A stretch of 64,000 nt of DNA, taken from Ewingella americana ATCC 33852. GTDB lineage: Bacteria > Pseudomonadota > Gammaproteobacteria > Enterobacterales > Enterobacteriaceae. The position numbers and the translations under genes are program-made. The stretch covers positions 35,720 to 99,719 of the forward strand of contig NZ_JMPJ01000056.1 of assembly GCF_000735345.1 (NCBI RefSeq), read 5' to 3'. Below are positions 6,999-47,665 of this stretch, piece after piece. Positions within the stretch are counted from its first letter, which is position 1, and each line of letters opens with the position of its first letter. The notes below the pieces were generated by a model, which saw only the letters and a program-made list of their open reading frames with translations, made no database searches and was not told where the DNA came from.

Positions 6999-7009
6999 GA
7001 AGAAGTGAC

Positions 7010-8267: not shown

Positions 8268-8356
8268 AACCCTAAATCATTCGTGTTGCAACCAGGCGGC
8301 AACCGGGGTGAGCTAGGGCAGCCAACGCCGTTGCAGCGCGAAGGATGACGGGTTTA
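8268..8356 (-). repeat. Dispersed intergenic repeat, internally deleted copy
   Basis: The stretch between bcr and rsuA resembles the reverse complement of 11658-11790. Both ends align: GTTGCA...AGGCGGCAA on the left, and CCAACGC...GCAGC followed by GAAGGATGA on the right. The central 45 bases or so are missing here. The repeat runs into the last codon of rsuA. It looks like a palindromic intergenic element of the type scattered through Yersinia and Serratia genomes. Confidence 0.6.
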
Positions 8357-27518: not shown

Positions 27519-28688
27519 TCATCTTTCCCGCAACGACTCTTTCACTTTATTCAGCGGTTTAATCAGATAATCCAGTACGGTTTTCTGCCCGGTTTTGATC
27601 TCTACGCTGGCCACCATCCCCGGCACGATGGGGAACTGGCGACCGGCTTTATTGGTTAACACGGCTTTGTCTGTGCGGACATACACGCGGTAGTAGAACT
27701 GGTCGCGCTTGACCTCATCCTGCAAGGTGTCTGGCGACACGCTCTCAACCTGCCCTTTCAAATCGCCATAAATAGAAGAGTCGTAGGCGCTGATTTTCAC
27801 CGTGGCTTCAAGGCCCGGACGGATATAGGCGATGTCGCGCGGGTTGATGCGGGTTTCAATCAGCAGTTGGTCTTCTATCGGGACGATCTCCATCAGCTTG
27901 CCGCCCGGTTGCAGGACGCCGCCGACGGTACTGACCTGAATATCTTTGACGATGCCGTGAACCGGCGAGAACAGCTCGGAGCGCGTCACCTGATCCTCCT
28001 TGCCCGCCATCACTTGCAGCTCGGCGTCGAGGTCGGCGTTGTTCTTCACCTGCTCTTCGCGCGCGCGCACCGCGTACTGGTTGATGGCATCATCAATTTT
28101 GCCGCGCAGTTCGCTGGATTGGCGCTGAAGGCGAATCACCTCCACCTGCCCCGCCGCGCCTTTCGCCACCAGCGGCTGGGTCATGCTTATCTCCTGATTG
28201 ACCAGCTTTAGCGACTGTTGCAGGTTGCTGACGGTTTCATCGCGGTTCTGCTTGCGAGATAAGTAGAGCTGGCGCTCGCGGGCGACCAGCTCCGGCGATT
28301 TCATGGTTTCCGGGCTGAATTTCAGCGGCGCGCCGGTCAACTCCGCGCTTAAACGCTCTGAAGACGCGCGCAGCGTGCGCACTCTGGAAGCCGCCTCGCC
28401 ATAATTCGACTGCGAACGGGTCGGGTCGAGCTGGGCCAGCAACTGGCCGCGATTGACGATGGAGCCTTCCTGCACCAGCAGTTTCAAAATCACCCCGCCG
28501 TCGAGGGAGTCAATCTGCTGCGCCTTGCTGGATGGCGTGACCTTGCCGGTGCCGACCGTCACCTCGTCGAGGGTGGCGAAGTAGGCCCAGACAAAAAACA
28601 GCACCAGCCCAACCAAGGAAACCCAGACAATTCCCGACACCTTTTTCTGTTGCGCGTCCAGATCATCATGCAGTGTTAAATGTGCCAT
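27519..28688 (-). CDS. Type I secretion membrane fusion protein, HlyD/LapC family
   Basis: Periplasmic adaptor of 389 residues. It has a short cytosolic N-terminus, one membrane helix (VWVSLVGLVLFFVWAYFATL), a barrel-lipoyl half (VGTGKVTPSSKAQQIDSLDG; VQEGSIVNRGQLLAQLDPTR), a long coiled-coil region around residues 90-230, and the second lipoyl/barrel half (SPVHGIVKDIQVSTVGGVLQ). It links the ABC exporter to the TolC-type channel. It is the last gene of the exporter operon, 17 bases after the ABC gene, in the order channel, ABC, fusion protein. Confidence 0.93.
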   Translation of the reverse strand: MAHLTLHDDLDAQQKKVSGIVWVSLVGLVLFFVWAYFATLDEVTVGTGKVTPSSKAQQIDSLDGGVILKLLVQEGSIVNRGQLLAQLDPTRSQSNYGEAASRVRTLRASSERLSAELTGAPLKFSPETMKSPELVARERQLYLSRKQNRDETVSNLQQSLKLVNQEISMTQPLVAKGAAGQVEVIRLQRQSSELRGKIDDAINQYAVRAREEQVKNNADLDAELQVMAGKEDQVTRSELFSPVHGIVKDIQVSTVGGVLQPGGKLMEIVPIEDQLLIETRINPRDIAYIRPGLEATVKISAYDSSIYGDLKGQVESVSPDTLQDEVKRDQFYYRVYVRTDKAVLTNKAGRQFPIVPGMVASVEIKTGQKTVLDYLIKPLNKVKESLRER

Positions 28689-30970: not shown

Positions 30971-32353
30971 TCAGAGAGAGGGAATGGTGTCACCGGTCTC
31001 TTTTTGTCGGTCGATGCCCAACATATCCACCAGATTGTCTACGGCTGCGGCATAGCGCACTGTGGCATCCCAGCCGTCGTACAGCGCGCCGATGCGCATG
31101 GTGTCAGCCTGAAAAACGTCCTGCTCGACGCTGAGTAAATCATTCAGGCTGCGTTTGCTTAGTTTGTACTCGTCCTGATAGACGCTGCGGGTGTGGGTGG
31201 CGCTGGAGTATTGGTCCTCGCCCGCCACTTGCCGCTGTTGGCCGCCAATCATGTCGGCATAGGCCGTGGAGGCTTTCTGGTTGATGTCCAGCTTGGCTTT
31301 TTCCACATCAGCCTGCGCCGCCTGACGCTCCCCCTCTGCGGCACGGGTTTTAGCGCTGACCGCGCCGCCCTGATAGACCGGCGCATCCACAGCCAGTTGG
31401 AGCTGGTCGTCCCAGTAAGAGCCGCCGCTGCCTGCGGCATTCTGGTAACGGGTGCGCCCCGCCTGCACTTTGATGGTCGGCCAATGCTGCGATTCCGCCT
31501 GATTCACCCGCTCAATCGCCGCCTGCTGCTTGGCCTGAGCAGCGCGAACCAGCGCGCTGTTTTCATAGGGGATTTTGTTCAGTGTGACTTTTTGGTTGAG
31601 TAAGCTTTGCGGTAAGTCCGGCAGATTGTCGGAGACCACGCCGGTCAGTACGGTGAGCTGGGCCTGTGCCGAACGCTGCTGGGCACGGTATTGTTCGACG
31701 GTGGCGCGCATCCCGGCGATGCGGGTTTCGGCCTGTAACACGTCAGATTGCGAGCTTAACCCCGCGTCGGCGCGCAGCTTGGCGGTGTCCGCCACGCGTT
31801 GCAGTGATTCAATATTGTCGCGAGCCGCCACGCTCAGTGCCTGATAGCGCTTCACTTGCAGATAGGCTTGCAGCGTACTCAGCGCCACGTCGGTCATGGT
31901 GCCGTAAAGGGCGTAACGGTAGGAGTCGGAGAGGCGTTCTTGCTCGTCGATACTGCCGCCGGTGCGCCCAAAGTCATACAGCAGCTGGCTGAGCTGAATG
32001 CCGCCAGACGCGTTGTTATCCAGCGTGCCGGAGGAGTCGGTTTGGCGCGACTTACCTGCGGTCCCCTGCAAAGAAATTTGTGGATACCAGGCACTTTTCG
32101 CCACATCAAGGTTCCCCGCGCCCACGCGAATTTGCGCAGCCGCTTCGGCTATCTGTGGGTTGCGAGCAAAGGCGCGCAGTATGGCATCTCGTAAAGTCAG
32201 GCTAGATCTCATCTCCTCGGTAGGTGCTGCTTGCCAATCAAACTCTGGCTGTTTCTCAGCCGCGAATACTTTCCCACTGTTTGCACCAGCAACAACTATC
32301 CATATCGTCCCCAGTACCACGGCAAATTGCCGCGATGATTGTTTCTTTTTCAT
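30971..32353 (-). CDS. TolC-family outer-membrane channel of the type I secretion system
   Basis: Outer-membrane channel of 460 residues with a signal peptide ending near GKVFA-AEKQ. Two TolC-type repeats are visible: SLTLRDAILRAFARNPQIAE with AGNLDVAKSAWYPQISLQGT, and ESQHWPTIKVQAGRTRYQNA in the second half. It resembles LapE/AggA-type channels dedicated to large adhesins. The ATG at 32353 is chosen for the basic start MKKKQSSRQ; a GTG 12 bases upstream is also in frame. It heads the exporter operon, 130 bases behind the adhesin gene and beyond its terminator. Confidence 0.92.
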   Translation of the reverse strand: MKKKQSSRQFAVVLGTIWIVVAGANSGKVFAAEKQPEFDWQAAPTEEMRSSLTLRDAILRAFARNPQIAEAAAQIRVGAGNLDVAKSAWYPQISLQGTAGKSRQTDSSGTLDNNASGGIQLSQLLYDFGRTGGSIDEQERLSDSYRYALYGTMTDVALSTLQAYLQVKRYQALSVAARDNIESLQRVADTAKLRADAGLSSQSDVLQAETRIAGMRATVEQYRAQQRSAQAQLTVLTGVVSDNLPDLPQSLLNQKVTLNKIPYENSALVRAAQAKQQAAIERVNQAESQHWPTIKVQAGRTRYQNAAGSGGSYWDDQLQLAVDAPVYQGGAVSAKTRAAEGERQAAQADVEKAKLDINQKASTAYADMIGGQQRQVAGEDQYSSATHTRSVYQDEYKLSKRSLNDLLSVEQDVFQADTMRIGALYDGWDATVRYAAAVDNLVDMLGIDRQKETGDTIPSL

Positions 32354-32440
32354 GAGCGACACCACTTTTCTCGCCGGATTATTATTATTTTTCAGCCTTT
32401 TCTGGCCTTACCAATTCATTTACTGCCTAACGCTCATTGT

Positions 32441-32482: not shown

Positions 32483-35400
32483 TTAGCTTTGCTGTTGTAC
32501 GTGCAGACCGTGCTGAACCAAGACGTCTCCCAACGTGTTGGTGCTCGCCAGCGACGCGTTGTGGTAGACGTCAAACGTCAGGCCATCCACGGTGCGCTGT
32601 CCGGTTTCAGTCCAAGCACCATCGCTTCCTGCGACCAGATTCACCAGACTTCCCTCGCCGCCTTTGATGATCACTTCATCATTCGGTGCGTCTTTAACCG
32701 TCAGCGACTCATGCAGGTTCAGCGTGATGCTGTTGGTGCCAGAGTTACCGAGGTCAAAGATGTCGATATGCTCGACTTTGAAGCCCAACAGGGTGAGATC
32801 CAGATGCTGGTTGGTGCCGCCAAGTTGCAGGGTATCCACGCCAGCGCCGCCGTCGATGTGACCGAAGTCCAGCGTATCCAGCACGATGATGTCGTTGCCG
32901 TCAGTACCCACCACATCCTGCTGGGTATGAGCCACGTCAATCGTCACGCCGCCGATGGAGAACGCCGTTTCGTCATGCGCCGTGGTGCTGGTGTCAGTTG
33001 ACGCCGCCTGCGCACCGGCATCTGCCGTGACCAGTGGGTCGGTCAGGGTGCTGGTGGCGTGATGCACGGTGTCAGTGGTTGAGCTATCGCTGCTGGTGGT
33101 ATGCAGCGCCGCTACCGCGTGGGTGTCGTCCGTGGTCTGCACATCCAGCGATTGCGCTTGCAGCGAGATAAGTGGGCTACCCGCCGCCAGCCCCACGTGG
33201 AGGTTGACGCCGTTACCCGCCAGATCTGTCGCTTGAAGCCCAACCACGTTACCGGTCAATGCGCCCAGCAGAGTGAAGAGGTTATAAGCCGCAAACACTT
33301 CACTGCTGAACTTCGCCTGCCATGAGCCGTCCGCCTGCACGACCGCGCCGATGGTGGTACCCAGCAAGGTGACGCTAATAATGCCGCCCTGCCCGATGTT
33401 GGCGCTGCTGCCTTTCAGCGTCAGGCCCGCACCAAGGATGCCACCAATCAAGCCACCCAGAGAGCCAAGACCGTCGAGGGAAACCAGCGGCAAGGCGTGA
33501 GTTTTCACCACCAGCGGACTGGTTTGGGTGGTGATGTTACCCACCGCATCGGTAATAGTGACTTTAACCGTGGTTGCGCCATCGGCGAGCCCCTTCAGCT
33601 CAGCGGCGGTAAAGGTGACATTCCACGTATTGTTGGTGATGGTGCCGGTATGGACCACCCCACCGACGTTGACCGACACCGAGCCGTTCTGCACGTTAGT
33701 TGTGCCGGTCAGCGTGGTGTTGCTGCTGGCTTCAGCAAGGTTCAGGAAGCCGTCACCACCAAACAGCGTGCCCAGATTCAGCGTTGGCAGAGTATGAATA
33801 CCCACGGTGACATTGGCATTGGCGCCAACGGTGTGGTTCGCGGCGTTGGTGACAGACACACCTACCCCGACCGTACCGTCAAGCAGGGTTGAAAGCAGGC
33901 TTGGCAGCACGTTGACGGAGAAGGTACCGTCTGCTTTCACCACCGCCGACAGGCTGGCCCCGCCGATAGTCACCGTCACTGTAGAACCTTCGGCGTTGGT
34001 GGTTTTGCCACTGATAGTCTGGGTAACTAGCGCCTGCACCGCATTCAGCAGGCCATTGTTAAACAATGGATCCAGCGTGATGGTTGGCAAGGCGTTGGCA
34101 ATAACGTTCACCGCGTTGGTGATGGTGCCGACGTTGCCTACCGCATCGGTGAAGGTCGCGGTGACGTTCTGCAAGCCATCGGTGAGAATGCCTTTCAGAT
34201 CCAACGGTGGAACCGTCACGCTGAATGCCCCGCCCACGCCGACGGTCGCCAGATAGGTTTTCCCGTTGAGGGAAATCTGTACCTGAGAACCGACAGAGAC
34301 GTTGGTCGCCACGCCACTGATGGTTTGGCCGGTCAGCAGGTCAACCACGCTCAGCACGCCGTCACCAAAGATTGGGTTAAGAACAATCGATGGCAGGTTG
34401 TGAATACCCACGTTCAGACCCGCGTTGACGCCGCTGGTGTTACCCACGGCATCCGTGACGGTTACGCCAACGCTGAGGTTGCCATCCAGCAACTGGCTCA
34501 GTTGCAGCGGCGTAACCTGTACGTTGAAGTGCCCGGTGCCATCGACAGTGCCGTTGAGAACCAAAGGCCCCAAGGTGATTTTGACCGACGAGCCCGCCGT
34601 AGCGTTCAGCACGGTACCGCTGATGGTTTGGGTCAGCAGCGCTTCGGCCGCGTTGAGCACCCCGTTGCCACCAAACAGTGGGTCCAGCACCACTTTCGGC
34701 AGGCTATTGATAATGACGTTGGCATTAACGTTGGTCGAACCGACGTTACCCGCGTCGCTGACGACCGACACGCCGATAGCCAAGGTGCCGTCAGCCAGCG
34801 CTTTCAGGTCGCCCGGTTGCAGCGTAACGGCAAATTTGCCGCCCGCATCGGTCACGCCGAGGAAGGTTTTGCCTCCCAGCGTCACTTTCACCGTGGTACC
34901 CGCCGTTACACCGGTAACTACGCCGCCAATGACCTGCGACGTCAGTGCATCCACCGCACCCAGCACGCCATTGTGCAGAACGTCCGTCAGGTTGATGGTC
35001 GGCAAGGTGACGTTAATCGCCGCCTGCGCGCCCACGCTGGTGGTGTTACCGTTGGAATCAGTCAGTGATACGTTGACACCAAGGTTGCCGGTGGTCAGGC
35101 CGCTCAACAGGTTAGCTGGCACAGTGACACTGAAGTGCCCGGTGGCATCAACCTGCGCGGTCAGCGGCGCACCCGCGCCGACTTGCACCGATAGAGTGGT
35201 GCCCGCCGCGACGTTTTTCACCACGCCGGTAATGGTCTGGTTCAGCAGGATATCCGCCGCGTTCAGCAAGCCATCGCCAAACAGCGGATCCAGCACGATT
35301 TGTGGCAGATTGTGCAGTGCCACGGTCAGCGGATTCAGCGCCTGAGTCAGCACGTTGCCCGCTGCGTCGGTGGCGGTGAGAATTACCGGCACCACACCGT

Positions 35401-38400
35401 CGGCCAGACTTGCCAGAGCACCCGCTGGGATAGCAATGCTGAAGGCGTTGTTCACCACGGTTCCGGTAAAGGTCAGCGCCCCGACCGCAATCTTAACAAT
35501 GGTGCCGTCGGCCGCGGTCAAAGCACCGCTCACGGTTTGCGCCGCGCCAGAAACCACGGTGTTGAGGATGTGATCCACATTGCCCAAACCGGAGGTCAGG
35601 TCGCCCAGCACTGGCAGGATTTTCGCCACGTTGAGGTCGATAACCTGCACTTTGGTATTACCCGCGGCATCGGTCAGCACGACGTTCAACGCCAGTGGAC
35701 CGTTTGGCAGGTTAGCCAACAGCGTTGGAGGAATGCTCAGGTTAAATTGACCATTCACACCCACATCGGCGGTGATCGTTTGCCCGCCGATTTCCACCGA
35801 CACCTTGGCACCGACGCCCGCACTGGTGGCGACGCCGCCAATGGTTTGAGTCAGCAACAGGGAAGCCGCGTTGAGCACGCCACCAACCAGTCCGCTGGTG
35901 ATATCAAGATCCAGCAAGCTGTTGAACAGCACGTTGATACCCACATCGACGCTGGTGGTGTTTCCTGCCTTATCGGTGACCGACGCGGTGAGGACGTTTG
36001 GCCCATCCAGCAGGCCAGACAGGCCCGTTGGCAGGATTTCAGCACTCCACGCCCCTCCCGGTTGAATCACTGCGGTACCCACGGTGACGCCAGCAATCTT
36101 GATGGTGACGGTCTGCCCCGCTTCGGCGCTGGAGGTACCGGTCAACAACTGAGTGACCAGCCCTTCCGCCAGATTCAGCACGTTGTCGCCCGCCAGCACG
36201 CCCACGCTCAGCAGAGGTGCTGTGGTGTTGGTGGTGAAGGTGTGTGGCGTGGTGGTGGTGTTACCCGCCGCGTCACTCAGGCTAGCGCTGATGGTGTTAG
36301 TGCCCGGTGGCAACCCTTGCAGGTCTGCTGCCGGAACCGTGGTGCTCCATGCGCCACCCGCACCGACCAGCGCGGTGTAGGTTTTGCCATTCAGAGTCAC
36401 CGTCACCGTACGGCCAATTTCCGAGGTTGAGGCAGTGCCGCTAATAGTCTGGTTAGTAGCTGCTTCTGTCCCATTAAGCACGTCATCACCGGCAAAGGCG
36501 CTAACGGTCAAGGTTGGTGGAGTACGGTCGACTACAACGGTTTGTGTCACTGTCGCCGTCGTGCCATTAAGGCCAGTCATAGATACTGTGACGGTATAGT
36601 TACCATCCGTTGGGAAGGTGACTAATTGCGACAGCCCGACAATAGTCCAGGTACCACTCGCGCTTGGCAGTGCTGGGAAGGTGCCCACGACTGGAACACC
36701 GTTAACGAACACGGTAATTAACTGCGGAGTCAGTACAGTTTGGTTATTCAGATACTGACCGGTAAAGCTCATGATCAAGCCGCCATCATCCGTTGAGTTG
36801 ATGATGTTATCGACACTGATTGGGTTAAGTGTCAGGAACGCCGCAGGAGGCGTCACGCTGACTGTAATGTCATGAATATCTGGCGTTGCAGCATTACCCG
36901 CAAGGTCAGACACGTTCGCCGTGATGTTGGTCGCACCATTACTTAGCGTCTGCAACTGAGCAGGAGACAGCGTTAGGCTCCAGCTACCGTCAGCCTGAAC
37001 AATAGCGCTTAATCCGGTGATTGAACCCACAGTAACATTAACAGTTCGCCCAGCCTCGACGTGAGCCGTGGTACCGCTAATAGTTTGCGGTGTGCGGCTT
37101 TCAGCGAAGTCCAGAATGTTATCACCTGCAAAAGTACCCACGGTCACGGTTGGCGCAGCAGCAGCGTCTGTCGCAATACCCACGTGGGAAATCGCCGTGC
37201 TGGTGTTACCCGACGCATCTGTCGCAGTGACGGTAATAGTCTGGCTGCCCTGCGGCAGAGTCGCTATCTGCGCCGCAGTTAAGTTCAGCACCCAGGTTCC
37301 GCCCGACACGGCGGCGATGAAGTCTTTGCCACCGATATTGACATTGACGCTGGTGCCATCCGTGGTGCCGTTTATAAGCGTCCCCGCTGCCGCTTCGGCC
37401 AAGTTAATGTAGCCATCGGTGGAGACGTTGGTCACTGCAACCACTGGCGGTGTGAAGTCAGTGGTGAAGTCCACAGGGACAGTTTTGGTGTTGCCGCTGG
37501 CGTCGGTCGCGGTGATGTTGATGGTGTGATCGCCGCCAGTCAGGCCACTTAACGCGCCCGCAGGCAGGTTCAGTGTCCAAGTACCGTCAGGCAAGACAGT
37601 GGCGTTATAGCTGGTGCCATTGACATCAATCACCACTTTAACCGCTTGGCCTGCGCCAGTTAGGCCGGTGGTGCCCGCAATGGTGATAGGCCCCGCCGCT
37701 TCGGCGATATTCAGCACATTATCCGCACCAAATGGCTGATTGGTGATGCTTGGGTTAGGAATGTTCAGGTCAACCGTAAACACTTCTGGCGAGCTGACAT
37801 TGCTGTTTCCGTACTGGTCGGTGCTGGTCACGGTGATGGAGTGCGTAGCCAACCCGGCGATATCCGCCAGTTGGGTAACTGTCAGATCCAGCGTCCATTT
37901 GCCGTCTGCGCCCACGGTAGCGGTCAGCGGTGCAGCAATTCCTGCGAAGGTAACCGTCACGATTTGGCCTGCGCCAGTGATGCCCGTTGAGCCGCTAATA
38001 GTCTGGCCTGCGGCCGCTTCTGCCGCATTGAGCACGCCGTCACCAAACACCAGATCAATGGTTGGAACTGGAGGTGGTGTCAGTTGAACCGAAATGTTCT
38101 CGGCTTGGGTGCTGGAGTTGCCCGCAACGTCGGTCACCGTTACGGTGGCCGTCCAGGTGCCATTCGGCAAGCCTTGCAGGGTCGCGGCATCCAACGGCAG
38201 AACCCAAGTGCCGGTCGCTGAATTCACGTCGGCGGTATAGTCCTTACCGTTGAGGTTCACCGTCACTTTCTGACCATCAGAAGTGATCCCGGTGGTGCCG
38301 CTGATGGAGCCACCCAGCGCCGCTTTATCAATGTTAATCGTGCCGCCAAAGCTGTCAGTGATAGTCGCCGTCGGCAAGGTATTAATGTAGGAAACAAATG

Positions 38401-41400
38401 GCACATCGCTCGAGGTGCTGTTGCCCGCTGCATCGGTCACTGCCACAGTCAGGGTGTTTTGGCCGTCGGTCAGGCCCAGCAGCGTGGCTGTTGGGATAGT
38501 CGCCGTCCACGTCCCATCCGGACCCACTACCGCCGTCACCGGTTTACCATCCAGCGTCAATACCACGCTGTCGCCCGGTGCAACTTTACCGGTCACAATT
38601 TGGTCGACGCCTGACTCCAGCTTGTTCAACGCGCCATCGCCAAACAGCGGGTCGACAACGGCAGCCACAGGAGGTGTCAGATCGACCGTCACGCTGTGCG
38701 AAGCCGAGGCCGGGTTGCCCGCCGCATCGGTGTAGCTCACGGTGACGGTGCCTACGCCTTCAGCGATATTTTGTGGCGTGATAAGGCCCGGTGCCACGGT
38801 GGCGGTCCATACGTTATCCGTTACCGTGCCGGTCACTTGTACACCCGCGACACTCACCTGCACCACCGTGCCGTTTGGCAAATTAGTGCTGGTACCGGTG
38901 ATAGTGAAGCCATCGGCAGCCGTGGTGATATTGACGAACTCGAGAGGATCCAGCGTCAGGACTGGCAAGTTGTTGATTGCCAACTCGATTGCCGGGTTAA
39001 CCGTCACGTCCGCGACATTGCCTTGTGCATCGGTCACTGTGGCGGTGATAACCAGTGGGCCATCGGTGGTGATGGCTTTCAGGTCAGCCGCAGGAATAGT
39101 CAGCGTCCAGTTGCCGCCTTCTGGCACCAGTACCGGGTAAGGCTTGCCATCGACAGTCACGGTGACCGTTGTGCCTTCAGGAGCCGTACCGCTGATTGGC
39201 AGGCCGAGCGCCGCTTCCACCGCGTTCACGATGCCATCAGCACCCGCATCCACCACGATAGTCAGCAGCGGAGGCGTGGTATCTACCGTCACCTGATGAG
39301 TGCCGGTCGCCACGTTTTCAGCGACATCATTACCGGTCGCGGTAATGGTGTATTCCTGATTTTGCAGCGCCTGCACGTCGGCGACAGGAACGGTGGTGCT
39401 CCATTTGCCGTCATCGCCAACAATCGCGGTGTAAGGCTTACCGTTCAAGGTGATGTTAATGGTTTCGCCCGCCACCAAGTGGTTGGACGTACCGCTGATC
39501 ACCAGAGGTTGGTTGTGCTCGGTGCTGTTAATGACGTCGTCACCAGCAACTTTATCAATGGTAATGGTTGGCAAGTTAGCTTCGCTCGCCAGTACATTGA
39601 CCTCGTGGGTCGCCGATGCTGGGTTGCCTGCCAGACTGGTGGCGTTAGCGGTAATAGTCGCCTGACCATCACCCAGCCCGGCCAGATCGGCAGCCGGAAC
39701 CGTGGTGGTCCATTTGCCTTCGCCATCCACCACGGCGGTGTAAGTCTTACCGTTGAAGGTCAGAGTGACTTCACGGCCCTCTTCAAGCTTGGTCGAGGTA
39801 CCGCTGAGCACCAGATCTTCGCCTTTCTCCGTGGCGTTGATGTAGTCATCACCAGAAATCGTATCGATGGCAAGCGTTGGGGTATAAGCCGCGCCAGCCT
39901 CAATGGTGAATTCATGGTTGATGGTGGTGGTGTTGCCCGCAGCATCCGTCAGCGTGGCGGTAATGGTGTGAGGACCATCGCCCAGAGCTTGCAACGCGTC
40001 GTTAGGCAGTGGAACTGACCATTTGCCATCCGTGCCGACGGTGCCTTCATAGGTCACGCCGCCCACCACCAGACTCACTTTAACGCTCTGGCCGCTATCG
40101 TTAACCGAGGCGGTCCCGGTCAGGGTGAGAGGTTGCAGCAGTTCAGCGGCGTTAATGATGTCGTCACCCGCCACCAAGTCGACGGTCAGCGTAGGTGCGA
40201 CGGTATCGACGGTCGCCTGAATGGTGCTGCTGCCAGTCGCGCCAGACGCGCTGGTCGCAGTGACTTCAATGCTCAACGGCCCTTGTGGCAGGCTCGCCAA
40301 GGCATTGGCCGGAACGTCCAGCGTCCAGTGACCATCCGCGCCCACGGTGGCATCAAAGTCTAGCCCGCCGATGTTCACCTTCACGGTTTGACCCGTGCCG
40401 GTCGCGCCAGTGGTCCCGGTCAGCGTCTGCACTTCAGCCAGCTCGATACCGTTAAGGATGGTGTCGCCGAATGGTGCATCAATCGATGGGAACAGCGGGC
40501 TAGGCACGCCAGTTACATTGACGCTGCCATCAACCACGGTCTGGTTACCCGCCGCATCGGTGACAGAAACGCTGTATGGATGGTCGCCAACGGTCAGGTC
40601 GCTCAGCGCATTTGGTGGTACCAGCACAGACCAACTACCGTCCGGCTGGATCACACCGGTGTAGGTGTGGCCGTCAATAGACACGGTGACTGGACGACCT
40701 GCATCGCCAGTGTCGCTGGTGCCTTGGACAAGGAAGCCGGTCGCTACTTCGTCGGTGTTCAGCTTGTCATCGCCAGTCAGTGGGTCAACGCTCAAGGTTG
40801 GAGCCGTCAAGTCCACGGTCACATTGGTAGTGGTTGTGCCCGTGTTACCCGCTGGGTCAGTGACGGTAACCAGCAGAGGCGAGGAGCCGTCAGTCAGGTT
40901 ATTGAGGGCGTTGGCCGGAATAGTGACCGACCAAGTGCCGTCATTACCCACCGTGCCGGTGTAATCTTGCCCGCCAATGTTCACGGTGACTTTCTGATCT
41001 GGGCCGACTGCACCGGTGTTACCGGTCAGAATCTGGTCGACGCCCGCTTCAGGCTTGCTCAGCACGCCGTCGCCAAATGGCGTATTCAGCACAGGGACTG
41101 GCAGCTGGGTGAAGACACCCACTGACTCAGTGGCCGTGGTGCTGTTGCCCGCCGCGTCAGACAGGGTTGCGGTTAAGGTGTATTGGCCATTGGCTAAGCC
41201 GAGCAGCGAGTTAGCCGGAATGTCGGTGGTCCACTTGCCGTCTGCCCCCACTTCGGCCTGATAGGTTTGGCCGTTAATGGTCAGAGTTACGATGCGCCCT
41301 GCTTCAGCAGGATCTGTGGAACCACTCAGCGTTACGGCGGCAGCGGCTTCAGCTGCGTCAATGTAGCCATTGCCCGAAATTGGGTCGATGGTCAGCGTTG

Positions 41401-44400
41401 GCGCGGTGAAGTCGACCGTCACGTTAGACGTGAGAGGCGTGCTGTTGCCTGCGGCATCGGCGGCTGTCACGGTGATAGCGTTATCGCTCTGCGGTAGCGC
41501 CTGCAAATCAGCCGATGGAATGGTCACGGTCCACTGACCATTGCCGCCGACGGTGGCGGTGTACTCCTTACCACCGAGGGTCACGGTCACGGTTTGGCCA
41601 TCGCCAACGATGCCGGTCGAACCACTCAGGGTCTGGCTGGTGGCGGCTTCCGCGGTGCTCAGCAGGCCGTCGCCAAATGGTGTATTGATAGTTGGCGTTG
41701 GCAGTTGATGGGTATAGACATCCAGCGTGACGGTGCTGCTAACCGCATTGCCTGCGGCATCGGTCGCGGTCACTTTCACCGCCAGCGGCCCGTCGCCGAG
41801 CAGCGCCAGATCGGTTGCGCCTACTGGCACGGTCCAAGTGCCATCCGCGCCAACGGCGGCGATGTAGGTTTTACCGTTCAAGGTGACAGTGACGTTAGCG
41901 CCTTCAGCCACGTTGTGCGATGTCCCGCTGATGTTGATGCCTGCGCCCGCTTCCTGCGCGCTCAGTTTGTTGTCGCCGGTGATTGGGTCAATCGCCAGAC
42001 CGCTCAACTCGGTGTTAATGGTCAGTGGCAGAGAGCCCTGCGCCGGGTTACCTGCTTTATCAGCCACTTCGGCGGTCAAGGTGATTGAGCCGTCGGTCAA
42101 GGCAGTCAGGTCAGCCGCTGGAATTTGCACGCTCCATGCGCCGCTGGCTCCCACTGTCGCAGTGTAGGTTTTGCCATTCAGCGTAATGTTCACTTGCTGT
42201 CCGGCTTCAACATGGGTGGTAGTACCGCTCAGCGTTTGGTCCGCCAGACGCTCGGCTCCATCGATGACGTTGTTACCCGCAAAGGCGTTCAGCGTCAGGG
42301 TTGGTTGAGAGTCGACGCCAGTCGCCAGTGTGACATTGGAGGTCTGGGTGGTGGTGTTACCCGCTTCGTCAGTCAGCGATACGGTCAACGGATATTGCCC
42401 GCTGGCCACGCCGTTCAGTACGCCAGCCGGAATATTCACCGTCCAATTGCCGTCACTGCCTACAAGGCCGGTATAAGTCGCGCCGTTGAGGGTCACGGTG
42501 ATGGTTTTACCTGCTTCGCTGACGGAGGCCGTACCTGTCAGCTCAAGCGCTCCAGCTGCTTCTGCACTGCTGACAATGCCGTCGGCGGTCAGAGGGTTCA
42601 CGGTCAGCGTTGGCGCGCTCAGATCCACGGTCACATTGCTGTTGATCGTCGTGCTGTTGCCCGCGCTGTCAGAGGCAACCACTACAATTGGGTTGCTGCC
42701 TTCTGGCAGGCCTTTCAAGTCAGCCGATGGAATACTGATAGTCCAGCTACCATTGGCGCCGACGGTGGCGGTGTACTCATGGCCGCCGAGGGTGACGGTA
42801 ACGGTTTGGCCGTCGCCCGCCTTACCGGTGGAGCCAGTCAGCGTTTGCGCCGTGCCTGCTTCGGTGATGTTCAGGAAGCCGTCGCCGAATGGTGTATTGA
42901 TAGTTGGTTCCGGTGCTACGTTGTCGACGCCGACGGAAACGCTGTTGGTCAGCGTATTGCCGTTGGCATCTTTGGTGACCGCGCTTACCGTGGTGGTGCC
43001 TGGGTCAATTCCCGCCAGTTCTGGGCTGGTGAAGTTCACCGACCAGCGGCCATTGGCCAGCACTTGTACGGTATGCGACACAGTGCCAAAGGTCACGACC
43101 ACGTCGGTGCCCACTGGCACACCGTAAGTCGTACCCGTAACCTGAATTCCGTTCTCAGTTTCCACCGCGTTGATGACGTTATCGCCCGTTACCGGGTCGA
43201 TTGCCACACCGTTCTCAGTAATATTTACCGTGAAGTTGTCGGTGCCAGAAGCTGAGTTACCGGCCTTGTCCGCCACTTCAACCGAGATGGTCTGCGTGCC
43301 GTTGGTCAGCACCTGCATGTCGGTAACCGGGATGATGACGCTCCAGCTGCCGCTCTGCTGAACTTCAGCCGTGTAGGTGTGGCCGTTAAGGGTGATTTTA
43401 ACGATTTGGCCCGCTTCCACGTTGGCCGTGGTGCCGTTCAGCACTTGCGCCGTTTGGACTTCCGCACCGTCTACCGCGTTGTCGCCACCAAATGGATTGA
43501 TGGTGATGGTCGGTTGGATAGTCGGGTCGGAAACCACGTGGATGGTATTAGTGGTGGTCGTGCTGTTGCCCGCCGCATCGCTCAGCGTTGCATTGACAAC
43601 AAAATCACCATTGAGGTTGTTTAAGGCGCCGGCAGGCAGCTCAACGCTCCATACCCCGTTAGGCCCAACCGTCGCGGTATAGGTTTCATTGTTCAGCGTG
43701 ATGGTGACTTCGCGGCCCGCTTCCGAAATGGAGGCAGTACCGGAAAGGGTCAGCGCGGTTGCAGCTTCCGCCAGACTGATTTGCCCATCGCCCGCCAGCG
43801 GGTTGATGGTCAGCGTTGGGGCCAACGTATCTACCGGCACATTATCATTGATAGTCTGGCTGTTACCGGCGACGTCGGTCGCAATCACCTGAATTGGCGC
43901 AGTGCCGTTCGGCAAGCTGCTCAAGACGCTGGATGGAATGCTGACGCTGAAGGTGCCGTCATTAGCCACCGTGGCGGCAAATTGCTGACCGCCGATAATG
44001 ACTGTCACACTCTGGCCTGCGCCCGTGACTCCGGTATTCCCAGTGATGGTCTGCCCAGCGGCGGCTTCGCTGCCATTCAGGGTGCCATCGCCAAACAGAG
44101 TGTCCAGCGTAGGGGCTGGCAGGTTGTGCACGTAGACATTGACGCTGCCGGCGGTGGAGATAGGGTTACCGCCGCCATCGGTGGCGCTCACTTCGATATT
44201 CTGTTTGCCATCGGCCAGTGCCTGAATAGCGGCCGTAGAAAGTTGAATGCTCCAAGTGCCGTTAGGAGCAACATCCGCCAGATAATTCACGCCACCAATG
44301 TTAACGGTGATCGCGCCAGGACCCGCTGGGACATTGAAAGTGGTCCCGCTGATGGTCACGCCTGCCGCGGCTTCAATGGCATTGATGTTGCCATCCACGG

Positions 44401-47400
44401 AAATAGGATCAATGGCGATACCGCCTAACTGATCATTAATCTCATACGGACGAGTTGCGGTCGCTTCGTTGCCAGAACTGTCACTGACTTTGACGTCAAA
44501 GTCTCCAGAACCATTACCGACATCATGCAGCGCGGTGGCCGGGATGGTCACGCTCCACGTACCATCTGCCCCTACGATACCGGTGTAGGTTTTGTCACCA
44601 AAGGTGACAGTAACGGTGTTCCCCGCTTCGACATTAGTGGTGCTACCGGTCAGTTTCTGATCGACCTGAATCTCTGCGCCGTCCACGATGTCATTACCCG
44701 CAAAGACGTTAACAGTCAGTGAAGGCTGAAGCGCCGGGTCTGCGGCGACGTGTACGGTGTCAGTGGTTGTCCCAGTGTTGCCCGCAGCGTCAGTCAGCGT
44801 GGCGGTAATAGTAATATCGCCATTTGTCCCAGTCAGCGTGCCGGCTGGCAGGTCAAAGCTCCATTTACCGTCATTGCCTACAATGACGTTATGCGGATCA
44901 CCGTTTACGTTGAGAACCAGCGTGCGACCCGCTTCAGAAGCCGATGCCGTACCGGTAATGGTGATAATGCCTGCGGCTTCATTGAAGGAAATTTTATTGT
45001 CACCGGTCACTGGATCGATAGTGACGTTTGGCGCAATGGTATCTACATCGACAGCAATTGGCGTGCTGATACCGCTGGAGTTACCGGCGGCGTCTTTCAC
45101 TTCCGTCGTCAGGCTGTGTGGGCCTTCGGCCAGCGGCTCGGCTGGGGTGTAAGACCAGTTACCCTCGCCATCAACTGGCACGGTCGCCAAGACTTTATCG
45201 CCATCGCGAATGGTTACCGTGCTGCCCACTTCAGCCTTGCCGCTGAGGGTTGGCGTGGTGTCGTTGGTTGCGCCGTCGATTGGCAAGTCATCGTTATTCA
45301 CCAGTTTAACGTCGGTCGCAGCGCCCGGCGCGGTGGTATCAATTTCAACAGCAATTGGCGCACTGATGCCGCTTGAGTTACCGGCCGCATCGCGCACTTC
45401 GGTGGTCAGACCGTGTGGGCCTTCCGACAGCGGATCTTGCAGCGTAACGCTCCAATTACCATTTTCATCAGCAATGGCGCTACCCACGATGGTGTTGCCA
45501 TCACGCACAATGACTTTGCTGCCCGCTTCGGCTTTGCCGCTGACGGTTGGCGTGGTGTCATTGGTGATGCCGTCTACCGGCAGGCCGTCTCCATTAAGGA
45601 TTTCTACCGCCGTGGCCGCAGCCGGAGGAATGGTGTCGATGTTCACGACGATAGGCGTGCTAACGCCGCTGGAGTTGCCCGCGGCGTCGGTGACTTCAGT
45701 AGTGATGCTGTGTGGGCCTTCGGACAGCGGCTGATCCAGAGTCAAACTCCAGTTGCCACTGCCATCGGCTTTGACGGTGCCAAGTACGGTGTCGCCATCG
45801 CGGATAGTGATGGCGCTGTCGGCTTCGGCCTTGCCGCTGATAGTTGGCTTGGTGTCATTGGTGCTGCCGTTAGTGCCGATAGGCGTGTTTTCACCGTCGG
45901 TTATCTGCACGTCGGTGGCCGGAGAAGGAGAACTGGCGTCCACGACAACAGCAATTGGTGTGGTTGGCGGGCTGCTGTTCCCCGCTGGGTCGGTAACCAC
46001 CACGGTCAGGCTGTGGTCGCCATCGCCAAGCGGTGGATTCGGCGTGAAGGTCCAGTTGCCGTTGCCATCCACCGGCGCGGTACCAATCACCGTGCCACCG
46101 TCGCTGACGGTAACGGTGCTGCCCGGCTCGGCTTTGCCACTCAGAGTTGGCGTATTGTCGTTGGTGCTGCCAGTGATTGGCTCGTTGGCGTCATTGACCA
46201 GCGTGACGTCTGTCGCGGCACCCGGCGCAGTAGTGTCAATCTCAACCGCGATAGGTGCACTCACGCCGCTGGAGTTGCCAGCAGGGTCAGTGACTTCAGT
46301 GGTAATGCTGTGATTGCCTTCGCCCAGTGGCTGAGTTGGGGTAACGCTCCAATTGCCATTGCCGTCGGCAACGGTAGAGCCAATTACCGTGTCACCGTCA
46401 CGGACGGTAACCGTACTGCCCGCTTCCGCCTTACCTGTGATGGTCGGCGTGGTATCGTTTGTCGCGCCAGTGATCGGCTGGTTTGCATCGTTAACCAGCG
46501 TCACATCCGTTGCACCAGCTGGTGCCGTAGTATCGACAACCACCGCAATCGGCGTGCTTGGTGGGCTGGTGTTGCCCGCCGGGTCGGTGACTTCAGCGGT
46601 GAGGCTGTGATCGCCATCGCCCAGCGGCGGATTCGGCGTAAAGGTCCAGTTGCCATTGCCATCTACCGGCACGGTACCAATCACGGTGCCGCCATCGCTG
46701 ATAGTGACGGTGCTGCCCGGCTCGGCTTTACCACTCAGCGTCGGCGAGTTGTCATTGGTCGGGCCAGTGATAGGTTGGTTTGCGTCATTGACCAGCGTCA
46801 CGTCTGTCGCCGCACCCGGCGCAGTAGTGTCGACGCCAATGGTGACGCCCTTGGTGATAGTTTGTCCGTCGGTGCCTGTCACGCTGACATTAGCCACATA
46901 GGTGCCATCTGCCAGGCCTTGCAGGTCGCCCGCAGGCAGCGTGATGCTCCATGAACCGTCTGCCGCGGTGGTGGTGGTGTAGGTTTTGCCATTCAGGGTC
47001 AAGGTCACGGTCTGCCCGGCGGTGACGTTAGTCGTCGTTCCGCTAAACACCTGCGAGTCGCCCACTTCAGCTTTATTCAAAACGTTATCGCCGGCGAAGG
47101 TCGCCAGCGTCAGGGTTGGTGTTTTATCGGAACCGCCCGGTTGCCCCGGTTGGCCTGGCTCTCCGCCATTGTTGCTGCTACCACCGCCGCCGCCACCGCT
47201 GTTGCTTGCGGCAATGGCAATACCCGCGCCCAATGCCACGACACCAAGCAATGCGCCGAGAATAGCCGGGTCGAAGTTGGAACCGTCGAGCAACAGTGCG
47301 CCGACGTCTGGCACTGTTTCATACCCTGGCACCACCGCCACGGCCGATCCCGGAGCAACGCCGGTATCGACGAAGGTGGCATGTTCAATCGGGTGCACAC

Positions 47401-47665
47401 CGTCATCGAAGATAAGCTCACTGTGGTGGCCTTTGCTGTCGGTGTTGAAGAAGCTGTGATAGCGAACCGTGCTGCCATCCTGCATGTGCAGGATCAGGTC
47501 ATTCCCCGCGCGCTCGTAGCTCAAAACCGCCGCGCGCGTAGCATGGACACGTACAATGCTGAGTTGGTTAAGATTGACAGTCTGGCTGGCGCCGGACACC
47601 TGGGAAATTACGCTGCCGTTAGTACGGGAAAGTACGTCGACGATGACATTGCCTTGTTGAGCCAT
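32483..47665 (-). CDS. Giant BapA/LapA-type surface adhesin secreted by type I system
   Basis: 5060 residues in one unbroken frame. The N-terminus (MAQQGNVIVDVLSRTNGSV) is a BapA-type prefix domain. It is followed at about 132-162 by a hydrophobic Ala/Gly stretch and a Gly/Pro linker. About 45 Ig-like domains of roughly 100 residues follow, each with a W in DGxWSV and ending near TDAAGN. Residues 275-873 hold six copies of one domain type; 873-2088 hold three copies of a four-domain cassette. The last 170 residues carry RTX-like GTDGND and GGAGVD segments and the secretion signal. It should form biofilm or attachment fibres held at the surface by its N-terminus. I saw no TAAG/PAAG LapG site near the N-terminus and noticed no cysteine. 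AAGGGG precedes the ATG; the longer frame to 47704 is unlikely. Confidence 0.92.
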   Translation of the reverse strand: MAQQGNVIVDVLSRTNGSVISQVSGASQTVNLNQLSIVRVHATRAAVLSYERAGNDLILHMQDGSTVRYHSFFNTDSKGHHSELIFDDGVHPIEHATFVDTGVAPGSAVAVVPGYETVPDVGALLLDGSNFDPAILGALLGVVALGAGIAIAASNSGGGGGGSSNNGGEPGQPGQPGGSDKTPTLTLATFAGDNVLNKAEVGDSQVFSGTTTNVTAGQTVTLTLNGKTYTTTTAADGSWSITLPAGDLQGLADGTYVANVSVTGTDGQTITKGVTIGVDTTAPGAATDVTLVNDANQPITGPTNDNSPTLSGKAEPGSTVTISDGGTVIGTVPVDGNGNWTFTPNPPLGDGDHSLTAEVTDPAGNTSPPSTPIAVVVDTTAPAGATDVTLVNDANQPITGATNDTTPTITGKAEAGSTVTVRDGDTVIGSTVADGNGNWSVTPTQPLGEGNHSITTEVTDPAGNSSGVSAPIAVEIDTTAPGAATDVTLVNDANEPITGSTNDNTPTLSGKAEPGSTVTVSDGGTVIGTAPVDGNGNWTFTPNPPLGDGDHSLTVVVTDPAGNSSPPTTPIAVVVDASSPSPATDVQITDGENTPIGTNGSTNDTKPTISGKAEADSAITIRDGDTVLGTVKADGSGNWSLTLDQPLSEGPHSITTEVTDAAGNSSGVSTPIVVNIDTIPPAAATAVEILNGDGLPVDGITNDTTPTVSGKAEAGSKVIVRDGNTIVGSAIADENGNWSVTLQDPLSEGPHGLTTEVRDAAGNSSGISAPIAVEIDTTAPGAATDVKLVNNDDLPIDGATNDTTPTLSGKAEVGSTVTIRDGDKVLATVPVDGEGNWSYTPAEPLAEGPHSLTTEVKDAAGNSSGISTPIAVDVDTIAPNVTIDPVTGDNKISFNEAAGIITITGTASASEAGRTLVLNVNGDPHNVIVGNDGKWSFDLPAGTLTGTNGDITITATLTDAAGNTGTTTDTVHVAADPALQPSLTVNVFAGNDIVDGAEIQVDQKLTGSTTNVEAGNTVTVTFGDKTYTGIVGADGTWSVTIPATALHDVGNGSGDFDVKVSDSSGNEATATRPYEINDQLGGIAIDPISVDGNINAIEAAAGVTISGTTFNVPAGPGAITVNIGGVNYLADVAPNGTWSIQLSTAAIQALADGKQNIEVSATDGGGNPISTAGSVNVYVHNLPAPTLDTLFGDGTLNGSEAAAGQTITGNTGVTGAGQSVTVIIGGQQFAATVANDGTFSVSIPSSVLSSLPNGTAPIQVIATDVAGNSQTINDNVPVDTLAPTLTINPLAGDGQISLAEAATALTLSGTASISEAGREVTITLNNETYTATVGPNGVWSVELPAGALNNLNGDFVVNATLSDAAGNSTTTTNTIHVVSDPTIQPTITINPFGGDNAVDGAEVQTAQVLNGTTANVEAGQIVKITLNGHTYTAEVQQSGSWSVIIPVTDMQVLTNGTQTISVEVADKAGNSASGTDNFTVNITENGVAIDPVTGDNVINAVETENGIQVTGTTYGVPVGTDVVVTFGTVSHTVQVLANGRWSVNFTSPELAGIDPGTTTVSAVTKDANGNTLTNSVSVGVDNVAPEPTINTPFGDGFLNITEAGTAQTLTGSTGKAGDGQTVTVTLGGHEYTATVGANGSWTISIPSADLKGLPEGSNPIVVVASDSAGNSTTINSNVTVDLSAPTLTVNPLTADGIVSSAEAAGALELTGTASVSEAGKTITVTLNGATYTGLVGSDGNWTVNIPAGVLNGVASGQYPLTVSLTDEAGNTTTQTSNVTLATGVDSQPTLTLNAFAGNNVIDGAERLADQTLSGTTTHVEAGQQVNITLNGKTYTATVGASGAWSVQIPAADLTALTDGSITLTAEVADKAGNPAQGSLPLTINTELSGLAIDPITGDNKLSAQEAGAGINISGTSHNVAEGANVTVTLNGKTYIAAVGADGTWTVPVGATDLALLGDGPLAVKVTATDAAGNAVSSTVTLDVYTHQLPTPTINTPFGDGLLSTAEAATSQTLSGSTGIVGDGQTVTVTLGGKEYTATVGGNGQWTVTIPSADLQALPQSDNAITVTAADAAGNSTPLTSNVTVDFTAPTLTIDPISGNGYIDAAEAAAAVTLSGSTDPAEAGRIVTLTINGQTYQAEVGADGKWTTDIPANSLLGLANGQYTLTATLSDAAGNSTTATESVGVFTQLPVPVLNTPFGDGVLSKPEAGVDQILTGNTGAVGPDQKVTVNIGGQDYTGTVGNDGTWSVTIPANALNNLTDGSSPLLVTVTDPAGNTGTTTTNVTVDLTAPTLSVDPLTGDDKLNTDEVATGFLVQGTSDTGDAGRPVTVSIDGHTYTGVIQPDGSWSVLVPPNALSDLTVGDHPYSVSVTDAAGNQTVVDGSVNVTGVPSPLFPSIDAPFGDTILNGIELAEVQTLTGTTGATGTGQTVKVNIGGLDFDATVGADGHWTLDVPANALASLPQGPLSIEVTATSASGATGSSTIQATVDTVAPTLTVDLVAGDDIINAAELLQPLTLTGTASVNDSGQSVKVSLVVGGVTYEGTVGTDGKWSVPLPNDALQALGDGPHTITATLTDAAGNTTTINHEFTIEAGAAYTPTLAIDTISGDDYINATEKGEDLVLSGTSTKLEEGREVTLTFNGKTYTAVVDGEGKWTTTVPAADLAGLGDGQATITANATSLAGNPASATHEVNVLASEANLPTITIDKVAGDDVINSTEHNQPLVISGTSNHLVAGETINITLNGKPYTAIVGDDGKWSTTVPVADVQALQNQEYTITATGNDVAENVATGTHQVTVDTTPPLLTIVVDAGADGIVNAVEAALGLPISGTAPEGTTVTVTVDGKPYPVLVPEGGNWTLTIPAADLKAITTDGPLVITATVTDAQGNVADVTVNPAIELAINNLPVLTLDPLEFVNITTAADGFTITGTSTNLPNGTVVQVSVAGVQVTGTVTDNVWTATVAPGLITPQNIAEGVGTVTVSYTDAAGNPASASHSVTVDLTPPVAAVVDPLFGDGALNKLESGVDQIVTGKVAPGDSVVLTLDGKPVTAVVGPDGTWTATIPTATLLGLTDGQNTLTVAVTDAAGNSTSSDVPFVSYINTLPTATITDSFGGTINIDKAALGGSISGTTGITSDGQKVTVNLNGKDYTADVNSATGTWVLPLDAATLQGLPNGTWTATVTVTDVAGNSSTQAENISVQLTPPPVPTIDLVFGDGVLNAAEAAAGQTISGSTGITGAGQIVTVTFAGIAAPLTATVGADGKWTLDLTVTQLADIAGLATHSITVTSTDQYGNSNVSSPEVFTVDLNIPNPSITNQPFGADNVLNIAEAAGPITIAGTTGLTGAGQAVKVVIDVNGTSYNATVLPDGTWTLNLPAGALSGLTGGDHTINITATDASGNTKTVPVDFTTDFTPPVVAVTNVSTDGYINLAEAAAGTLINGTTDGTSVNVNIGGKDFIAAVSGGTWVLNLTAAQIATLPQGSQTITVTATDASGNTSTAISHVGIATDAAAAPTVTVGTFAGDNILDFAESRTPQTISGTTAHVEAGRTVNVTVGSITGLSAIVQADGSWSLTLSPAQLQTLSNGATNITANVSDLAGNAATPDIHDITVSVTPPAAFLTLNPISVDNIINSTDDGGLIMSFTGQYLNNQTVLTPQLITVFVNGVPVVGTFPALPSASGTWTIVGLSQLVTFPTDGNYTVTVSMTGLNGTTATVTQTVVVDRTPPTLTVSAFAGDDVLNGTEAATNQTISGTASTSEIGRTVTVTLNGKTYTALVGAGGAWSTTVPAADLQGLPPGTNTISASLSDAAGNTTTTPHTFTTNTTAPLLSVGVLAGDNVLNLAEGLVTQLLTGTSSAEAGQTVTIKIAGVTVGTAVIQPGGAWSAEILPTGLSGLLDGPNVLTASVTDKAGNTTSVDVGINVLFNSLLDLDITSGLVGGVLNAASLLLTQTIGGVATSAGVGAKVSVEIGGQTITADVGVNGQFNLSIPPTLLANLPNGPLALNVVLTDAAGNTKVQVIDLNVAKILPVLGDLTSGLGNVDHILNTVVSGAAQTVSGALTAADGTIVKIAVGALTFTGTVVNNAFSIAIPAGALASLADGVVPVILTATDAAGNVLTQALNPLTVALHNLPQIVLDPLFGDGLLNAADILLNQTITGVVKNVAAGTTLSVQVGAGAPLTAQVDATGHFSVTVPANLLSGLTTGNLGVNVSLTDSNGNTTSVGAQAAINVTLPTINLTDVLHNGVLGAVDALTSQVIGGVVTGVTAGTTVKVTLGGKTFLGVTDAGGKFAVTLQPGDLKALADGTLAIGVSVVSDAGNVGSTNVNANVIINSLPKVVLDPLFGGNGVLNAAEALLTQTISGTVLNATAGSSVKITLGPLVLNGTVDGTGHFNVQVTPLQLSQLLDGNLSVGVTVTDAVGNTSGVNAGLNVGIHNLPSIVLNPIFGDGVLSVVDLLTGQTISGVATNVSVGSQVQISLNGKTYLATVGVGGAFSVTVPPLDLKGILTDGLQNVTATFTDAVGNVGTITNAVNVIANALPTITLDPLFNNGLLNAVQALVTQTISGKTTNAEGSTVTVTIGGASLSAVVKADGTFSVNVLPSLLSTLLDGTVGVGVSVTNAANHTVGANANVTVGIHTLPTLNLGTLFGGDGFLNLAEASSNTTLTGTTNVQNGSVSVNVGGVVHTGTITNNTWNVTFTAAELKGLADGATTVKVTITDAVGNITTQTSPLVVKTHALPLVSLDGLGSLGGLIGGILGAGLTLKGSSANIGQGGIISVTLLGTTIGAVVQADGSWQAKFSSEVFAAYNLFTLLGALTGNVVGLQATDLAGNGVNLHVGLAAGSPLISLQAQSLDVQTTDDTHAVAALHTTSSDSSTTDTVHHATSTLTDPLVTADAGAQAASTDTSTTAHDETAFSIGGVTIDVAHTQQDVVGTDGNDIIVLDTLDFGHIDGGAGVDTLQLGGTNQHLDLTLLGFKVEHIDIFDLGNSGTNSITLNLHESLTVKDAPNDEVIIKGGEGSLVNLVAGSDGAWTETGQRTVDGLTFDVYHNASLASTNTLGDVLVQHGLHVQQQS
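41402..45045 (-). repeat. Three tandem copies of a four-Ig-domain cassette in the adhesin
   Basis: Domain openings recur in fixed order on the minus strand. A is xAPTLTINPLAGDG, B is QPTLTLNAFAGNN with VDGAE, C is GxAIDPITGDN, and D is PTINTPFGDG. Copies begin near 45045, 43826 and 42620, so the period is about 1.21 kb (about 404 residues). The units are diverged, not identical. Confidence 0.8.
45045..46840 (-). repeat. Six tandem 100-residue Ig-like repeats near the adhesin N-terminus
   Basis: Units of about 299 bases, each opening with variants of TTAPGAATDVTLVNDANQPI and continuing with TNDxTPTLSGKAEPGSTVT, G(N)GNW and LGDGDHSL. Nucleotide similarity between units is high, especially units 1-3. 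Confidence 0.85.

Follow-up and report, generated by a model that had tools for sequence, protein, structure and literature searches.

A single gene in the window, as we call the whole analysed stretch of 64,000 nucleotides from Ewingella americana ATCC 33852, encodes a giant adhesin composed of many Ig units and raises the question of how such a protein grows and what determines its length. The original prediction had read an order in the units, in which a cassette of four different domains (A-B-C-D) is repeated, and had proposed growth by duplication of multi-domain blocks. The features of the locus are compiled in Table 1. Besides the start codon given there, the open reading frame listing offers an alternative GTG start for the adhesin frame at position 47704.

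The N-terminal domain matched BapA_N (PF22783) with 6.7e-17 and NF033677 with about 2.4e-22 to 1.7e-21, both above the cut-off. The Ca_tandemer model NF033510 matched 23 stretches in each half of the adhesin. For the last 239 residues, no NCBIfam family was found at E ≤ 1. Genes encoding a TolC-type, an LssB-type ABC, and an HlyD-type protein are located directly downstream and are codirectional with the adhesin gene. BapA-type adhesins (with SiiE) share the prefix-like N-terminus, the tens of Ig units, and the adjacent TolC/ABC/HlyD genes, and three features of the type (prefix-like N-terminus, long Ca-tandemer Ig array, adjacent type I secretion genes) were found here. The SiiE-related model NF047714 scored 58.4 bits with a cut-off of 425. 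A LapA-type adhesin would be released by the protease LapG (PF06035), which had no match in the 92 contigs of the window's own genome; a control search matched one of 14 genomes (Caulobacter). From these matches, we read the protein as a BapA-type giant adhesin that is probably exported by its own type I system. Between a porin gene and the secretion genes, a DUF4034 protein is encoded (window 25472–27457), for which a weak match to Sel1 narrowly missed the cut-off.

Table 1. Position of the adhesin gene, its parts, and the neighbouring secretion genes in the window
Feature	Position	Strand	Remarks
Giant adhesin gene	32483..47665	minus	5060 residues counted from ATG at 47665
BapA prefix-like N-terminal domain, presumed cell-proximal	47282..47641	minus	residues 9–128; PF22783, NF033677
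Unit u01, B-like, lone, opens the array	46832..47131	minus	90% identical in same-genus L046
Units u02–u07, six E-type domains (SiiE/Bap-like)	45044..46831	minus	
Cassette 1 (A1 B1 C1 D1, u08–u11)	43832..45043	minus	unit HMM, identity matrix, trees
Cassette 2 (A2 B2 C2 D2, u12–u15)	42626..43831	minus	matches Rahnella slot 2
Cassette 3 (A3 B3 C3 D3, u16–u19)	41414..42625	minus	A, B, C match Rahnella slot 3; D matches slot 2
u20–u21 (A, D), probable cassette 4 without B and C	40814..41413	minus	position scores of u20, tree place of u21
u22–u23, probable older A-D junction ahead of the tail	40208..40813	minus	u23 with junction D of relatives; placement of u22 weak
Conserved tail, 23 units u24–u46, presumed distal arm	33203..40207	minus	colinear in relatives
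C-terminal 239 residues, presumed type I secretion signal	32486..33202	minus	
TolC-type outer membrane protein of the secretion system	30971..32365	minus	TIGR01844 1.2e-91, above cut-off
Type I secretion ABC transporter, LssB type	28706..30922	minus	TIGR03375 1.4e-253, above cut-off
HlyD-type periplasmic adaptor	27519..28688	minus	TIGR01843 3e-95, above cut-off

With a unit HMM built from the window protein itself, 46 Ig units (u01–u46) of about 100 residues each were defined in the adhesin. The array units behind u01 are only 36–70% identical in L046, as if u01, with its higher identity (Table 1), belonged to the N-terminal anchor. The six copies of one domain type that had been predicted are present as u02–u07, which are mutually 52–91% identical and form type E. 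The three tandem A-B-C-D cassettes of about 404 residues were recovered as u08–u19 (41414–45043), with like units spaced 402–404 residues apart. Where about three further rounds of A and D alone had been expected, only two were found (u20–u23), in which u22 is a weak A (38% identity to A1–A3). The third A, u24, opens the conserved tail. It is A-like, yet it scored best as the first unit of the tail in the same-genus models (103 versus 84 bits); on the Rahnella models it was nearly tied with A1 (110 versus 113 bits).

The mean identity between units of u08–u19 was 34.6, 34.0, 35.0, 49.3, 33.3, 36.2, 36.6, and 46.4% at lags 1 to 8, respectively, and the anticipated period-four bands of the identity matrix are visible (49.3% at lag 4 versus 33.3–36.6% at lags 1–3 and 5–7). 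When the order of the 12 units was shuffled 200,000 times, the resulting period-four contrast of 13.6 points was reached nine times and never exceeded. The 1.2-kb period that had been predicted for the DNA between 45.0 and 41.4 kb is present as well. The codon-aligned DNA of u08–u19 was 57% identical at lag 4, 56% at lag 8, and 47–48% at the other lags up to 7. A blastn self-comparison of the same region yielded 12 off-diagonal matches, six of them at one or two cassette lengths, including the best (lag 1212, 79% over 192 nt, 6e-44) and the second best (lag 1206, 2e-12). The six matches at non-cassette lags were all weaker (5e-7 or worse). Tandem Repeats Finder reported nothing, because the copies have diverged and the cassette is longer than the 500-base limit of the program. 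The four-domain cassette is confirmed in the window protein.

The original prediction also held that A, B, C, and D form separate clades. In a tree of the window's units alone, E and B formed starred clades, and C (support 94/77) and D (85/93, including u30 and u31) were each recovered. All six A units were grouped without support (15/0); A1–A4 held together (95/84, starred), and A5 and A6 were not firmly placed. After the addition of 69 units from four relatives, a starred branch separated each of the four classes from the rest (A, 25 rows, 100/96; B, 16 rows, 100/97; C, 19 rows, 100/94; D, 25 rows, 100/99), and three changes were needed, which is the minimum. The separation thus holds in the enlarged tree, but not for all six A units in the tree restricted to the window. 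A strict history of whole blocks was rejected, since the window-only subtrees disagree about the closest copies: A and C pair cassettes 1 and 2, and B and D are closest between cassettes 2 and 3. We read these conflicting pairings as probable later exchange between cassettes.

Short-read assemblies can collapse repeats, and two genes of the same genus are broken into several frames, which could raise the suspicion that the layout was produced by assembly or by forcing units into classes. This is highly improbable: With a DNA identity of only 57% at lag 4, the window copies cannot have arisen from each other by mis-assembly, and the layout recurs in independent genomes. For the window, an assembly artefact is excluded. 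In one of the broken genes (L099 of G001, also L045), the frame changes at u36, after which u37–u46 and the C-terminus continue colinearly in a different frame. In the other (L047/L009, G002), the adhesin is split into several open frames. Either decay or assembly error may lie behind the breaks in both genomes.

Relatives were identified with the N-terminal 158 residues as query in 198 genomes of the family, of which 69 matched. The N-terminal 480 bases used as query gave no match in E. coli genomes. The analysed genes comprised 20 + 20 fetched ones and six named Rahnella loci, which end about 10 kb into the gene and were left out of the tail and joint counts. As to four other loci, L008 is the same contig as L046, no more than two and eight units are present in L009 and L010, respectively, and L017 (37%, weak) was unused. 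One genome per species was compared, so all variation in array length reported here is between species. The genome of the window and G002 belong to the same genus-level group.

According to unit typing, the order A-B-C-D is common to other genera. The protein of Rahnella victoriana (L012) consists of u01, four ABCD cassettes, A, D, and then the conserved tail. The same arrangement, but without the first B, was found in four further named Rahnella (L011, L013, L014, and L016), in L048, and in the same-genus L046. In Rahnella inusitata (L015), the array is longer and altered. Scored against models of the Rahnella positions, u12–u15 were best placed in slot 2 (A2 150, B2 150, C2 104, and D2 150 bits; runner-up slots 112, 134, 60, and 117 bits, respectively). 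Units u16–u18 were assigned to slot 3; only u19 deviates and falls into slot 2. With same-genus position models, the A and C units received the same assignment, u13 and u15 were placed in other slots, and u17 was tied. Because of the matches of u12–u15 to slot 2 and of u16–u18 to slot 3, cassettes 2 and 3 appear to be older than the split from Rahnella, and B and D copies were apparently exchanged to some extent afterwards.

The AD-AD of the window corresponds to ABCD-AD in L046, L047, L048, and five named Rahnella. An A-D junction was found at the same place in 12 of 19 relatives with a continuous tail (L045 was omitted owing to its frame change). In the enlarged tree, u21 is placed beside D4 (94/90), and u23 joins the junction D of the relatives (99/98, starred). 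Since u21 sits with D4 and u23 with the junction D, the window most likely carries a cassette 4 that lacks B and C, followed by the older A-D junction. The proposed loss of B and C is therefore supported for u20–u21, but not for u22–u23, where the junction seen in 12 of the 19 relatives is found. The exact event near u20–u23 is uncertain because the A units are muddled: u20 scored as A4 in the same genus (130 versus 95 bits with L046/L047) and as the junction A in Rahnella (134 versus 119 bits).

The block of six E-type domains is present in the window and in L045 (G001) and absent in L046, L010, and the six named Rahnella. Its G+C content is not unusual. Units u02–u04 matched BIg50-52 of SiiE (PDB 2YN3) with 6e-15, and the E-type units are also near a Bap (7DM0). 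As units resembling the E type were found in the other adhesins L100 and L101, the block may derive from an adhesin of this kind. In L101 (G119), an E-type adhesin, the unit scores oscillate with a three-domain period at protein positions 205–1335. Copies at lag 302 were seen in L081, and both observations together hint that a three-domain cassette may exist.

The copies in the window are ancient, and the proposed growth by duplication of multi-domain blocks draws its support mostly from relatives, above all from L050 (G052). This protein contains seven ABCD cassettes. Their units mostly share 84–100% identity at lag 4 (54% for the first A, 78% for the last A), compared with about 39–41% at lags 1–3. 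Its DNA is 89% identical at lag 1212 nt (locus positions 1232–8460). Since the L050 copies are mostly near-identical at lag 4 and their neighbours near 39%, the cassette is, to judge from these sequences, a unit of duplication. L052 and L058, too, have recent copies at a lag of four units in their arrays (88% and 91% DNA identity where matching). In L073 (G074), a recent four-unit duplication (residues 3458–3900; types 37, 38, D, and 40 twice running) is located inside the tail and was not counted as a further example of cassette growth in the array.

Other block sizes were found in the same sample. In a second, more distant adhesin type with a BapA prefix, recent copies are six units apart (about 597–600 residues). 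They were detected in L074, L075, L077, L078, L083, and L084, with a trace in L079; the DNA copies are about 80–94% identical where matching, and in the four proteins typed, the units do not follow the A-D cassette order. The second-type adhesin of G052 has an open frame of 11,324 codons, and L078 contains 486 residues of a 60-residue repeat, which is not the Ig unit length. Arrays of a single domain were observed in L053, in L058, and in the E block of the window. The first units of L053 and L058 are arrays of one B-like domain with lags of 105 and 103, respectively. Single-domain growth thus appears to coexist with cassette growth at the same N-terminal end.

The order might carry no function at all. 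A chance duplication of four domains, followed by homologous recombination, would yield the same layout, and we regard such a neutral expansion as plausible, if not quite probable. In L050, sufficient similarity for recombination exists only between copies at a distance of four units or a multiple of four. According to the accessible part of PMC1553488, the common way for repeated domains in general to multiply is by several at once, and other spacings (about three, five, six, and ten units) occur in the sample, as does the three-unit score pattern in L101. The persistence of order and joint chemistry across genera at 33–68% identity speaks against neutrality, but weakly, as an order would persist unselected, too.

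Alternatively, dissimilar neighbours may be selected: If adjacent Ig domains of the same sequence misfold once they are secreted, multi-domain blocks would be the form of growth that is tolerated, and the cassette would be favoured instead of being an accident. Among 1725 units, 222 (in 17 of 41 proteins) have a partner of at least 75% identity within their own protein; 184 of these 222 have both neighbours below 50% and 18 have a neighbour of at least 60%, numbers which represent few independent arrays from a set of 41 proteins that includes near relatives. The unrelated adhesin type that grows by six-domain blocks shows the same neighbour property. In the accessible parts of the literature, neighbours in large multidomain proteins are described as usually less than 50% identical (PMC8201768), and a figure of 40% is also given (PMC4647330). 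However, the single-domain arrays of L053, L058, and the E block break with this pattern, MpAFP has about 120 identical neighbours in the part of PMC4083281 available to us, and neutral recombination would likewise retain the block that arose first. We advance selection for dissimilar neighbours only tentatively and think it somewhat less probable than neutral expansion.

The extender domains of MpAFP and MhLap (4P99, 5IRB, and 6XI3) are the closest solved relatives of the A-D domains, with 4P99 in first place (4.1e-36). Ca ions in the linkers rigidify the MpAFP/MhLap rod, and Ca-binding acids are placed at such joints in published structures, as far as the accessible texts go (PMC4083281, PMC7493085, and PMC4083281, PMC5466336, respectively). 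In the clearly typed units of the adhesins (units with a class margin under 8 bits were dropped), an acid residue in the linker core was present in 58 of 60 D-A, 32 of 42 A-B, 17 of 48 B-C, 5 of 51 C-D, and 3 of 15 A-D joints. Counted by genomes with an acid in most joints, the fractions were 16/16, 10/15, 5/17, 1/18, and 3/14, respectively. At the core position of the B-C joints, Asn accounted for 67% and Asp for 23%. A stiffness pattern of period four is therewith possible. A joint code as a general rule was dropped because the six-domain arrays carry acid or Asn at most joints. The linker Asp was not equated with Asp104 of MpAFP, as the 4P99 alignment places it two residues off; the equivalence is only suggested.

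These joints bear on the fibre periodicity of about four units that the original prediction had raised as a possibility, and on the idea that four domains make one turn of the rod. In that case, each type would face one side, and the cassette would set the geometry of the fibre and its repeating pattern of stiff and soft joints. The joint chemistry with its period of four is in line with this, as are the repeats of 4P99, which rotate by about 90 degrees each in the available account (PMC4083281). An AlphaFold model of A2-B2-C2-D2-A3, based on 25 aligned cassettes (pLDDT 91.6, pTM 0.70), had its best match in 4P99 (E 1.5e-30). The domains agree and the rod does not (TM 0.30, rmsd 30), so the model keeps the fold without the 4P99 rod shape. 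It did not support a fibre periodicity of four units, and one helical turn per cassette is not claimed. Moreover, the twist of solved relatives repeats every two to four domains, including i+3 and i+2 tandems (accessible part of PMC7493085), the six-domain arrays carry acid or Asn at most joints, and the joint residues may simply be inherited with the class. We therefore consider a structural period unlikely. The four-domain rod of 4P99 is 190 Å long (PMC4083281, as far as available), and a cassette would add about 19 nm if it were built alike.

Behind the array, the number of units hardly changes. Counted back from the C-terminal end of the Ig region, unit number 24 is of type D in 27 of 28 relatives, which span 25 genus groups; the exception is L073. 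D labels make up 28% of all units. Among the 28 orthologs searched (window, L046, and L048–L073), repeats of at least 75% identity in the tail region were found only in L073. The units u24–u46 were reciprocal best hits in C-terminal register in 23 of 23 cases in L046 and 22 of 23 in L047. In the Rahnella-group sequences L048 and L049, 16 and 17 of 23 were obtained, and in distant genera 2–10 of 23, so that the constancy of the tail in the latter rests on the D position and on end-to-end alignment. L045 and the fragment L047b were dropped from the tail and A-D junction counts because of frame changes, L047 from the array-length count, and L074–L084 (second adhesin type or more distant) from both tail and array-length analyses. 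The distal part is nearly always fixed at 23 units, and the proximal array is variable: Up to and including the D unit at position −24, it contains 5–39 units among the 27 counted. These lengths fit 1 + 4k (without the A-D junction) or 3 + 4k (with the junction) in 18 of 27 relatives and in 9 of 15 distinct length states, a rule framed post hoc on relatives that are not independent (17 of 26 without L056, which has a false 43-residue unit).

In type I adhesins, the C-terminus exits first and the N-terminus remains at the cell. For this reason, the N-terminal end of the window protein is presumed to be cell-proximal, the array to be the proximal stalk, and the 23-unit tail to be the distal arm. 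Taken as a whole, we consider it probable that the protein has a BapA-type stalk with a cassette-built, variable proximal array and a distal arm that is near-fixed at 23 domains. The length of the array near the N-terminus would shift largely via gain, loss, and exchange of ABCD cassettes (404 residues, 1212 nt), presumably by recombination between copies four units apart, and the number of the 23 mutually dissimilar distal domains would nearly always stay constant. In the lineage of the window, the old cassettes 2 and 3 would have been kept, cassette 4 would have lost B and C, and six E-type domains would have been added N-terminally. Array length probably determines the distance between the cell and the conserved distal arm. 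The model has its limits: Array lengths do not always step by four, single domains also multiply (E block, L053, L058), L073 breaks the −24 rule, and the slots are blurred for same-genus B and D units and for A4 versus the junction A.

In open-access full texts, no BapA-type four-domain higher-order repeat with a fixed 23-domain tail was found; subscription papers were mostly outside this scope. A direct precedent for a multi-domain cassette is the three-part EFG module of the Acinetobacter BAP, present in two or four copies. According to the accessible part of PMC4647330, this module differs in its domains and their number and lies in the COOH region, whereas the window cassette is part of the N-terminal array. 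Periscope Proteins likewise carry a conserved far end on a stalk of variable repeats, as outlined in the available parts of PMC8201768 and PMC9704523. Their neighbours are highly identical, whereas here neighbours are dissimilar and the near-identical unit (L050) comprises four domains; highly identical DNA repeats were not found in the window (57% at lag 4), and in L050 the identity is 89%. MpAFP and MhLap use one domain type in identical or similar copies, and the available parts of their descriptions (PMC4083281, PMC7493085) contain no cassette order. The seven-domain and other multi-domain duplications of nebulin (PMC1553488, accessible part) and the super-repeats of titin are similar higher-order repeats, but in eukaryotic muscle proteins.

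The cassette represents a concrete and countable unit of stalk growth, combined with a nearly fixed distal arm. Two questions can now be tested with natural sequences: whether secreted multi-domain rods are under selection for dissimilar neighbours, and whether tuning of reach proceeds cassette by cassette, in increments of about 19 nm, a length taken from 4P99. Giant Ig adhesins of enterobacteria may even grow by higher-order cassettes in general. Recombination between long DNA units of close similarity (1.2 kb with four domains, 1.8 kb with six) would then change the length of the stalk, dissimilar neighbours would be kept, and a 23-domain distal arm would be retained, although we would at present sooner doubt than assert this generality. 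If true, such growth would allow periscope-like variation in length without breaking the rule of dissimilar neighbours, while the distal arm would be kept at 23 domains.
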